This document shows positions 2,056 through 4,446 of a stretch of DNA of 61,208 bases, piece after piece; position 1 is the first letter of the stretch, and every line of letters starts with the position of its first letter. Source of the stretch: Runella sp. (GTDB lineage: Bacteria > Bacteroidota > Bacteroidia > Cytophagales > Spirosomataceae). The stretch covers positions 1 to 61,208 of the forward strand of contig JALQYJ010000177.1 of NCBI GenBank assembly GCA_023254175.1. The letters run 5' to 3'. A program made the translations under genes and the position numbers. The notes under the pieces are model-generated. The model was not told the origin of the DNA. It did no database searches and worked only from the letters and a program-made list of their open reading frames with translations.

Positions 2056-3054
2056 TCAATTTTTATAGTATGCTTTTTTACTAGCATTTTGTTCCAACAA
2101 CCATACTTCTGTATTCTTTAATCGCTTAGCGACCTTTCGGCCTTTTTCAATTCCTAATACACTAAAAGCGGTCGCAAGTGCATCGGCAGCAGTACCATTG
2201 GGAGCAACAACCGTTGTGCGGGTATGGGTTGTCAAGCCTACACCCGTGTATGGACTCACAATGTGCGAATACCTCACCCCTTTGTAATCAAAATGCCGAT
2301 ACGTACTTCCCGAAGTAGCGACCCCACAATTTTTCAATTTCAGTATATGCGTGGCAGTCGTATCCCCTCCGCCCGAACTTACTTCAATACTCCAACCCTC
2401 TTTCTCAGGTGGCGCATCTCCAATGGCCAAGTCTCCACCCGCGTCCAAGAAGGCACGATGAATACCAAATGATTTCAAGACGCTCAACACATCATCGGCA
2501 GCATACCCCTTTCCTATTGCTCCAAAATCAATCCGCATTTTTTTACGCTTCAAAACGACCGAACGATCCTTTTTTCGAAGTTGAACCAAACGATACCCCA
2601 CCGCATCGCGCGCCTCTTTAAGTTGAGGTTTGTCAGGGAAATAATTGCGCCTAACTGCCCTACGCCACAATTGAACAATCGGGCCGACAGTTACATCAAA
2701 AGCACCGTTCGCCTGACGACTATATTGTTGCGATTTCACCAAAATATCAAACAAAATCGGGCTTGCATAGAAACGCTGTCCCGTTCCTGCTGTTTCAGAA
2801 AGCCGATTTACTTCGCTTCCATCCAAATAATCGCTCAAAAGGGAGTTAAGGTAGTGAATACGAGCAAAAGCGCTATCAGAAGCTACTTTTGCAATAGAAT
2901 CACTTGAAGCATAAAAAACCAAATTAAACTCCGAACCCATGGCGTTTCGGGCATACGCAAATCGTCGAAGTGAAGAAGGTTGTTGACCAACCGATTTTAA
3001 CGCTGACAAACTCAAGCATACCAAAGTAAAAACGTATAAAGAAAGTCGGCTCAC
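2056..3054 (-). CDS. apbE: FAD:protein FMN transferase (ApbE family)
   Basis: ApbE attaches FMN from FAD to threonine residues of redox proteins such as Nqr/Rnf subunits and flavin-binding extracytoplasmic proteins. The 332-residue protein has the family motifs in order: MGSEFNLVFYA near residue 40, DFGAIGKGYAAD, DAGGDLAIG (nucleotide/Mg binding), and SHIVSPYTG. An N-terminal hydrophobic stretch ending near KSVGQQ is a probable signal peptide, as expected for an ApbE acting outside the cytoplasm. Length is normal for the family. No obvious flavinylation target lies next to it in this window. It is divergent from the cysE leader and convergent with the AraC gene. Confidence 0.9.
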   Translation of the reverse strand: MSRLSLYVFTLVCLSLSALKSVGQQPSSLRRFAYARNAMGSEFNLVFYASSDSIAKVASDSAFARIHYLNSLLSDYLDGSEVNRLSETAGTGQRFYASPILFDILVKSQQYSRQANGAFDVTVGPIVQLWRRAVRRNYFPDKPQLKEARDAVGYRLVQLRKKDRSVVLKRKKMRIDFGAIGKGYAADDVLSVLKSFGIHRAFLDAGGDLAIGDAPPEKEGWSIEVSSGGGDTTATHILKLKNCGVATSGSTYRHFDYKGVRYSHIVSPYTGVGLTTHTRTTVVAPNGTAADALATAFSVLGIEKGRKVAKRLKNTEVWLLEQNASKKAYYKN

Positions 3055-3147
3055 AAAGAATGAATTTATAGACAGATAGATATATTTTCAAAATAACCGC
3101 CAAAGTTGAACCTTTTTGCACGGTTTTTGGTATCACAAGTATAAAAA

Positions 3148-3177
3148 TTGTTCCAATGGAAACGATTCGTACCTTTG
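3148..3177 (+). promoter_or_regulatory. Bacteroidota-type promoter upstream of cysE
   Basis: TTG at 3148-3150, a 19-base spacer, and TACCTTTG at 3170-3177 match the Bacteroidota -33/-7 consensus (TTTG, 19-21 bases, TAnnTTTG). Transcription would begin near 3182. This start lies inside the small poly-cysteine ORF, so this promoter by itself would not allow that ORF to be translated. A weaker alternative that would is TTTTG at 3114-3118, a 21-base spacer and TATAAAAATTG from 3140. Confidence 0.6.
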
Positions 3178-3203
3178 CGTGTTGTTGCTGTTTCATTCGT
3201 TAA
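3156..3203 (+). CDS. Candidate cysteine-rich leader peptide of cysE
   Basis: The ORF reads M-E-T-I-R-T-F-A-C-C-C-C-F-I-R-stop. Four successive Cys codons (3180-3191) 108 bases before the serine acetyltransferase start are what an amino-acid attenuator of a cysteine gene would look like; poly-cysteine leader peptides are known from mycobacterial cysteine genes. The stop codon (3201-3203) is 10 bases before the antiterminator helix begins, so a ribosome at the stop would cover its first bases while one stalled at the Cys codons would not. Against it: the best promoter match would start transcription inside the ORF, and no Shine-Dalgarno site is present (normal in this phylum). Confidence 0.4.
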   Translation: METIRTFACCCCFIR

Positions 3204-3209
3204 GCGATT

Positions 3210-3281
3210 GAAAGGGAATAGTTTAGCCAAAGTGAATCAACCATAAAGCTGCCCTTTCCCACTCGGAAGGGCTTTTTTTTT
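3210..3281 (+). promoter_or_regulatory. Transcription attenuator in the cysE leader
   Basis: The terminator is GCCCTTTC (3251-3258) pairing with GGAAGGGC (3265-3272), followed by eight T, ending 18 bases before the cysE start codon. An alternative helix pairs GGG (3214-3216) with CCC (3252-3254) and AG-TTTA (3220-3225) with TAAA-CT (3244-3250, one bulged G). The two structures share bases 3252-3254 and exclude each other, so the leader has the layout of an antiterminator/terminator switch. The signal could be a leader peptide, a small molecule or a protein. Confidence 0.7.
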
Positions 3282-3298
3282 ATAACCTAGTCAATGCC

Positions 3299-4126
3299 AT
3301 GACCTCAACCCCAACTACCTTGTCAAACACTTTTTTTGAACGTCTCGCTGAACAAAACACCCATTATCAGTACCGTTTGCCCTCCCGAAACGAAGTCGGA
3401 AAGTTTGTGGAAGAAATGATGCGTTTTTTGTTTCCTATCACCCAAGATTGTTCGCGCTCAGCCACCAATCTACCAGAAGCTTACATCAAGCTTCAACAGC
3501 GTCTTTTGTGTTTGTTGGAACCTCTCAATGGCAACCTTGAAACCAACCATGAAGCCGTTACGGAGCAGTTTATGAAACAACTGCCTGCTATTTATGAAAA
3601 TTTGCTTTTGGATGCTCAAGCCATTTCAGACAACGACCCCGCTTCCATTGGTATTGAGGAGGTTATTGCCGTCTACCCAGGCTTTTATGCTATTGCAGTA
3701 TACCGTTTAGCGCACGCCATGGTCGATTTAGAAGTTCCTCTTCTTCCCCGTATGCTGACCGAATACGCCCACGGACTAACGGGTATTGATATTCACCCTA
3801 AAGCGAACATTGGGCAATCGTTTTTTATCGACCATGGTACAGGGGTAGTTATCGGCGAAACAACTGACATTGGCAATAATGTCAAAGTCTATCAAGGGGT
3901 AACACTTGGTGCTTTGAGCGTTTCTAAATCATTGGCAGAAACCAAACGCCACCCTACTATTGAGGATAATGTGGTGATTTATGCCAATGCGACCATTTTG
4001 GGAGGTAAAACGGTCATTGGAAACGACTCTATCATTGGAGGAAATGCTTGGTTAACTGCCAGTGTACCGGCATTTTCGCAAGTGTACCACCAAAGCGAAG
4101 TAAAAATACGCCAAACCGTATTTTAG
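3299..4126 (+). CDS. cysE: Serine O-acetyltransferase
   Basis: CysE makes O-acetylserine from serine and acetyl-CoA, the first step of cysteine synthesis, in the cytoplasm. The 275-residue protein has a helical N-terminal region and a C-terminal left-handed beta-helix of hexapeptide repeats from about residue 160: [39 protein letters not shown], then VTLG and [20 protein letters not shown]. The catalytic histidine motif FIDHGTG is intact. The long N-terminal region resembles the EpsC/SatA type usual in Bacteroidota. Expression is probably controlled by the attenuator directly upstream. A convergent hxlR-type gene ends 8 bases after its stop. Confidence 0.93.
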
Positions 4127-4134
4127 TCTCTAAT

Positions 4135-4446
4135 TTATAAAATCGTCTCTAACTGCCGAAATACGGCTATCAATGCTTTCCCTTTGTCAGAAAGCGTATA
4201 TTCAATATGGAGTGGTTTGAGTTGAACCACTCTTTTTTCCAAAATCCCCCGCTCTTCCATTTCCTTCAATGCTGTGGCTAACGACTGCTTGTTAGAGCCT
4301 TTGAGCTGACGAAGTAGTGTATTGAATCGCAACGGCGCTTCCAAGGCCAATCGAAATAATTGCGGCTTCCATTTGCCCGAAAGCATTTTTAACAACCCCT
4401 CTACGGGACATTCTTGCCCTTGTTCTTCTTCCATCGGTGTAGTCAT
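4135..4446 (-). CDS. HxlR family HTH transcriptional regulator
   Basis: At 103 residues this is a single winged-helix protein of the HxlR/DUF24 family. The motif CPVEGLLKMLSGKWKPQLF is near the N terminus, followed by RFNTLLRQLKGSNKQSLATA (recognition helix region) and the wing HIEYTLSDKGKAL. The conserved N-terminal cysteine (CPVE, about residue 12) is the residue that senses redox or electrophile stress in many HxlR proteins. It is transcribed away from the DsbA-like gene with a 100-base shared upstream region, the usual arrangement in which HxlR represses its divergent neighbour. The target is inferred from that arrangement. Confidence 0.9.
   Translation of the reverse strand: MTTPMEEEQGQECPVEGLLKMLSGKWKPQLFRLALEAPLRFNTLLRQLKGSNKQSLATALKEMEERGILEKRVVQLKPLHIEYTLSDKGKALIAVFRQLETIL

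Follow-up and report, generated by a model that had tools for sequence, protein, structure and literature searches.

A probable cysteine-responsive transcription attenuator before cysE in Runella, with comparable leaders before cysE elsewhere in Bacteroidota

Does a short reading frame with four successive cysteine codons, lying just ahead of the serine O-acetyltransferase gene cysE in a Runella genome, control that gene according to the supply of cysteine? The DNA analyzed here, called the window throughout, is the whole stretch of 61,208 nucleotides of contig JALQYJ010000177.1, and an earlier note on it had read the region before cysE as a classical cysteine attenuator. That reading is supported by recurrence before cysE in other lineages and by conservation within Runella, where 10 of 13 genomes share the arrangement, the response to cysteine being what we infer from the arrangement. 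The anatomy of the region, together with repeated recurrence before cysE with unrelated sequences, makes cysteine-responsive transcription attenuation the best explanation. On the strength of sequences and modelled folds, cysE is very probably controlled by a ribosome-mediated attenuator that senses cysteinyl-tRNA.

The gene and its neighbours are placed as follows.

2056-3054, minus strand: ApbE gene, a neighbour upstream of cysE on the opposite strand.
3299-4126, plus strand: cysE, serine O-acetyltransferase, the putatively regulated gene, assigned by profile matches.
4135-4446, minus strand: HxlR-like regulator gene, a neighbour downstream of cysE and convergent with it.

The cysE product scored 152 bits against the NCBIfam EpsC profile (cut-off 150) and 159.3 bits against TIGR01172, which is under the cut-off of 210.65 for that profile. 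As both neighbours lie on the other strand, cysE appears to stand alone, and the terminator at 3251-3281 does not lie behind a plus-strand gene. The region between ApbE and cysE holds these features.

3108-3133, plus strand: promoter-like element GAACCTTTTTGCACGGTTTTTGGTAT, which precedes the leader ORF and hardly varies among the 10 leader-bearing Runella loci.
3156-3203, plus strand: leader ORF of 15 codons, peptide METIRTFACCCCFIR, ATG at 3156-3158 and stop codon TAA at 3201-3203.
3180-3191, plus strand: four consecutive Cys codons TGT TGT TGC TGT, the putative control codons, from the sequence and the Runella comparison.
about 3188-3216, plus strand: predicted 1:2 hairpin, fold -10.6 kcal/mol, z -3.96 in the window.
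3210-3216, plus strand: antiterminator 5′ arm GAAAGGG, pairing with 3252-3258 over 7 bp, extended inwards.
3252-3258, plus strand: antiterminator 3′ arm CCCTTTC, common to the terminator 5′ arm, from its pairing with 3210-3216.
3251-3281, plus strand: intrinsic terminator, an 8-bp hairpin GCCCTTTCCCACTCGGAAGGGC at 3251-3272 followed by nine T at 3273-3281, from the sequence.

The 15-codon ORF with four cysteines in a row is thus borne out by the sequence, and an intrinsic terminator stands between it and cysE, where the earlier note had put one at 3251-3280. An antiterminator sharing terminator bases is present as had been claimed, and it excludes the terminator, the pairing of 3210-3216 with 3252-3258 using bases of the terminator arm 3251-3258. 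Its position had to be corrected from 3214-3254, 10 bases past the stop, to a 5′ arm that begins 6 nt past the leader stop and 18 nt past the last Cys codon.

These parts could work together in the following manner. Transcription would start upstream of 3156, judging from the conserved element at 3108-3133. When charged tRNA-Cys is low, the ribosome would stall at the Cys run 3180-3191 and leave 3210-3216 unoccupied; this free arm would pair with 3252-3258, the terminator would be blocked and cysE would be made. When cysteine is present, the ribosome would reach the stop at 3201-3203 and cover the first bases of the antiterminator 5′ arm, upon which the terminator 3251-3272 would form and transcription would stop.

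Four TGY codons in succession are by themselves common, with 43 sites in the window genome against 33 for the reversed control pattern; none of the other 42 sites has a short Cys-run ORF with a six-T run within 200 nt downstream. The main evidence against chance is conservation in relatives. A protein search of 59 relatives added 12 genomes of the same genus, which makes 13 with that of the window. The upstream regions of cysE were compared among them, as the earlier note had proposed, and Cys codons, frame, stop, antiterminator and terminator were found together in 10 genomes, the window's included (loci L006 and L009-L017), and were jointly absent from three (L007, L008 and L018). Wherever the leader is present, the start codon (ATG or GTG), Cys run and stop share one frame, the stop comes exactly three codons past the run, the antiterminator has 7-9 bp, and the terminator has a stem of 8-9 bp with a T-rich tract. 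There are four Cys codons in eight loci and five in two (L016 and L017), with one synonymous change in the run, in L011. The residues flanking the run vary freely while run, frame and stop are constant, those before it reading METIRTFA, MKTATLLV, MKSIRIAA, VNIKPAAG, VKTKRAAV, MISLYSVSAVG and MTFLYCIFAVG. The pattern which the earlier note had named as contrary, with hairpins kept and Cys codons lost, was looked for and not found in the 13 genomes. Covarying stems, which the note had also proposed to look for, did not emerge within Runella: in an alignment of eight of the ten leader loci (L016 and L017 were excluded for their different register), one of nine pairs was changed on both sides, and the score, matched by 80 of 500 shuffles, was not significant. 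Where four Runella genomes carry a second cysE copy, the upstream stretch examined contains no run of three or more Cys codons. In the three genomes that lack the leader, cysE comes directly after the promoter-like element (identical in L007 and L008, with three mismatches in L018), the gene having an ambiguous start codon in L007 and L008; these are natural leader-less strains.

The folding states were predicted for the ten leader-bearing Runella loci. For a ribosome halted at the Cys codons, the nascent RNA is predicted to fold with the antiterminator in every locus, at -9.5 to -15.8 kcal/mol, which agrees with the earlier claim that stalling frees it. For a ribosome at the stop codon, which by the same claim would cover part of the 5′ arm, the predicted fold is weaker than in the stalled state in all ten, at -0.2 to -8.0 kcal/mol in eight loci, but still reaches -10.0 in L010, and in the window this competitor, at -10.5, is close to the -11.5 kcal/mol of the terminator alone. 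A residual GGGAA/UUCCC pairing remains in the window species with the ribosome at the stop, and the predicted switch is therefore shallower than was first claimed. Against shuffled sequences the antiterminator helix gave p values of 0.002 to 0.12 per locus. The 1:2 hairpin had z values of -1.7 to -4.0 in eight of the ten loci, -0.8 in L009 and +0.2 in L011. In folds with no ribosome, taken on the sequence ending before the terminator 3′ arm, the antiterminator was whole in six loci (L009-L013 and L015), lost in three (L014, L016 and L017) and partial in the window; that it is kept in six of ten tells against the simple model, in which the 1:2 hairpin, a putative part of the switch, would exclude it.

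The upstream element at 3108-3133 is the candidate for the start of transcription, and its 17-base core occurs a single time in the window genome at up to one mismatch. For a sigma-54 reading of it the spacing is suggestive and the bases are not. A promoter-like GAACYTT..GC..TTTTTG is recognisable by eye before cysE in several Spirosomaceae genera, with a leader or without. A further promoter match lies within the leader ORF.

3148-3177, plus strand: TTG (3148-3150), N19 and TACCTTTG (3170-3177), a sigma-A-like promoter match inside the leader ORF, from the sequence.

This match corresponds to TAnnTTTG, which the relevant section of PMC9723704 gives as the Bacteroidota sigma-A -7 consensus, and it allows the alternative that survives best, namely that in the window species the RNA starts near 3183, past the ATG, and the ORF is untranslated, most transcripts then being ended constitutively at the terminator, or an RNA of about 100 nt being made. 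We consider this improbable. TAnnTTTG is found at a like place in just two of the ten leader-bearing Runella loci (L006 and L017), L017 being the only one besides the window, whereas all ten keep the Cys run in frame between its start codon and its stop, and it was because of this lack of conservation that TACCTTTG at 3170 as the promoter, with the ORF as an artefact, was demoted to a rival reading. The window's copy sits 14 nt downstream of the leader start; among 13 representative leaders from across lineages, seven carry TAnnTTTG ahead of the leader start, at a distance of 17-32 nt, as an attenuator requires, and five have none. The TACCTTTG box is possibly a secondary start in the window species.

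Attenuation by cysteinyl-tRNA can further be judged from the upstream regions of cysE outside Runella, and here the cross-lineage comparison came out in its favour, with units of Cys leader, terminator and antiterminator, in other sequences, standing before cysE in other Bacteroidota. All nine Larkinella genomes (L023 and L076-L083) have poly-Cys ORFs before cysE, which encode CCC or CCCC in eight and CCS in L081, and a terminator was found by script in eight of the nine. Among 53 further cysE loci (L173-L225, from Bacteroidota and others) a Cys-doublet ORF occurs with a terminator in six and without one in four (L182, L184, L185 and L189). The six belong to Capnocytophaga sputigena (L180), another Capnocytophaga (L194), a Bacteroidia MAG and a Crocinitomicaceae MAG that are alike (L192 and L209), and MAGs labelled Rikenella (L193) and Chloroflexi (L173, a doubtful label). 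The CCC runs before cysE of Allomuricauda (L184 and L185), for which no terminator was called, are by eye antisense to the neighbour gene and were rejected.

A survey of the class found cysE of the window's type in 59 of 296 genomes. Upstream regions were examined for 63 of the 65 listed matches, representing 57 of the 59 genomes, and a Cys-doublet leader with terminator was present in eight of these 57 (G000, G012, G706, G563, G542, G525, G731 and G682), two of which are Runella. The genus of G563 has the window-type cysE in 8 of 36 genomes; inspection by eye found a Cys-doublet leader with terminator in three of the eight (L276, L268 and L390), and no such leader was noticed in four. Another locus of this genus, L387, keeps the leader and terminator with a single Cys where its relatives have a doublet or triplet, and is perhaps a decaying or retuned attenuator.

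The formal recurrence tests were run after the pattern had been noticed. A strict caller found a terminator within 125 nt in 33 of 179 cysE upstream regions, 25 of these being mutually dissimilar; the terminators that script or eye finds in L009, L010 and all nine Larkinella loci escape it. A short Cys-Cys ORF is present in 12 of the 25 dissimilar leaders, the window's included (13 of 25 when the leaders are untrimmed), against 1.5 expected from shuffles, and the count was reached by none of 300 dinucleotide shuffles. When the doublets of all 20 amino acids were ranked by enrichment, Cys came first (z 9.1) and Met next (z 4.4, likewise 0 of 300 shuffles), the latter of which may be explained by start codons. 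Over 58 loci a Cys-doublet ORF stands before 13 of the 20 terminators found at cysE, against 1 of the 222 found elsewhere, with a Fisher p of 9e-16 that is inflated because a few loci are related. In the 13 representatives, which were selected for having a terminator, the stretch after the Cys codons pairs with the terminator 5′ arm at a combined Fisher p of 9.8e-7, against 0.90 for the 3′-arm control; taken singly, eight pairings are below 0.05 and five lie at 0.11-0.41. The distance from the last Cys doublet to the 5′ arm is 10-26 nt. The antiterminator 5′ arm begins within the leader ORF in the 12 representatives that are not Runella, and the at-stop geometry thus differs from that of the window. 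No Cys leader was found at 30 cysKM loci, only two of which have a terminator, nor at 28 cysD loci, only four of which have one (two more, of unclear offset, were dropped). We hold the chances about even that Cys-sensing attenuators, with unrelated peptides and hairpins, arose or turned over many times before cysE across Bacteroidota.

It could also be supposed that the leader works via translation or Rho, with no switch between terminator and antiterminator, as proposed for actinobacterial Cys leaders; the pertinent part of PMC1262725 describes Cys-rich leaders there that lack conserved terminators. We regard this as very unlikely here, as all ten Runella leaders are accompanied by a terminator, T-rich tract included, and by an upstream arm complementary to it, and terminator and complementary arm are found again in the 13 cross-lineage representatives, chosen though these were for their terminators.

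A conserved motif, TGTNGT..TTCCNCA-N4-GGGG-N6-WTCYAC, was observed before cysE in Spirosoma, Fibrella, Rudanella, Larkinella and relatives (L101, L069, L084, L107, L023 and others). Its looser core occurs in 37 loci, mostly without a terminator, and for 10 loci Rfam gave no hit with an E of 1 or below. In nine of ten second sites examined the motif lies 205-217 nt before a sigma-70/ECF-type gene (L247-L253, L255 and L256); in L247 the sigma gene is followed by an amine-oxidoreductase-family protein, which we take to be a carotenoid desaturase, and then by a phytoene-synthase-family protein. Recurring as it does about 208 nt before a sigma factor/carotenoid gene cluster, the motif looks like a separate regulator site, and it is likely a shared one. 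It overlaps the Larkinella Cys run, and the Larkinella loci therefore give weaker support for an attenuator. A peptide motif RSSxRG in other genera was also considered, partly by eye; single-base indels and several frames without a start codon indicate that this stretch is not coding in general. L060 was rejected as a chance match within a gene. Against Rfam, the best score of the window's leader stretch was 21.5 bits (gathering threshold 56.4), and among 12 cross-lineage loci no match at gathering score falls on the cysE leader, the only match lying outside. A match to the SAM-II riboswitch, at 58.5 bits against a gathering score of 44, was noted close to the cysE locus of G682, at L280:941-1020 on the minus strand. 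That a metabolite-binding RNA or a protein-bound element is at work and the Cys codons are incidental, as the motif before cysE in many other Spirosomaceae might suggest, is hardly credible, since no copy of this motif was found upstream of cysE in the Runella loci, no Rfam family reaches gathering score in these leaders, and in Runella it is the run, frame and stop that stay while the surrounding residues change.

If cysteine attenuators did arise or turn over repeatedly before cysE, RNA control would recur in Bacteroidota at this point of entry into cysteine synthesis, and the leaders would form a natural series for the study of leader-peptide birth and loss. A leader attenuator at cysE would provide charged tRNA-Cys as a simple sensor for the entry step in several lineages. 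Direct tests and comparisons of leader evolution could draw on the three leader-less Runella genomes and on the unrelated leaders of other lineages. No description of RNA-level cysteine sensing, of a cysteine attenuator or of cysE leader control in Bacteroidota was found in the literature searched, which lay outside supplements and most subscription papers.

The classical amino-acid attenuators are the trp, his and leu leaders of Proteobacteria. The arrangement described here is like them in having a short ORF in which codons for the end product follow one another, predicted segments for 1:2, antiterminator and terminator hairpins, and a place before a biosynthetic gene; it is unlike them in concerning cysteine, cysE and Bacteroidota, and the 12 representatives outside Runella differ from them also in starting the antiterminator 5′ arm within the leader ORF. 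A study by Canestrari (2020) reportedly concerns cysteine leader peptides of the actinobacterial kind. For Mycobacterium, Propionibacterium and Bifidobacterium the relevant part of PMC1262725 describes short ORFs that carry runs of Cys codons ahead of cysteine genes, and the Runella leader resembles these; the same part reports no conserved terminator hairpin for the Mycobacterium leaders and suggests Rho-dependent control, whereas Runella has both terminator and antiterminator. The uORFC-8-2 motif at cysS of Rhodobacterales, as its account in PMC8632094 presents it, is similar in its tandem Cys codons within a uORF, its terminator stem and the proposed stalling at low charged tRNA-Cys; it differs in standing upstream of cysS in Alphaproteobacteria, with two Cys codons within the first stem, whereas the gene here is cysE and the genus Runella. 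The closest by phylum is Flavobacterium psychrophilum, for which leader-peptide attenuation of amino-acid biosynthesis operons is reported (PMC9723704); the relevant section names pheA and hisG among structured 5′ elements and no cysteine gene. The earlier note knew of no described control of this kind in the lineage, which needs correcting as regards amino-acid operons other than those of cysteine. Leader attenuation itself is already reported in the phylum, and what would be new here is cysteine at cysE in Bacteroidota.
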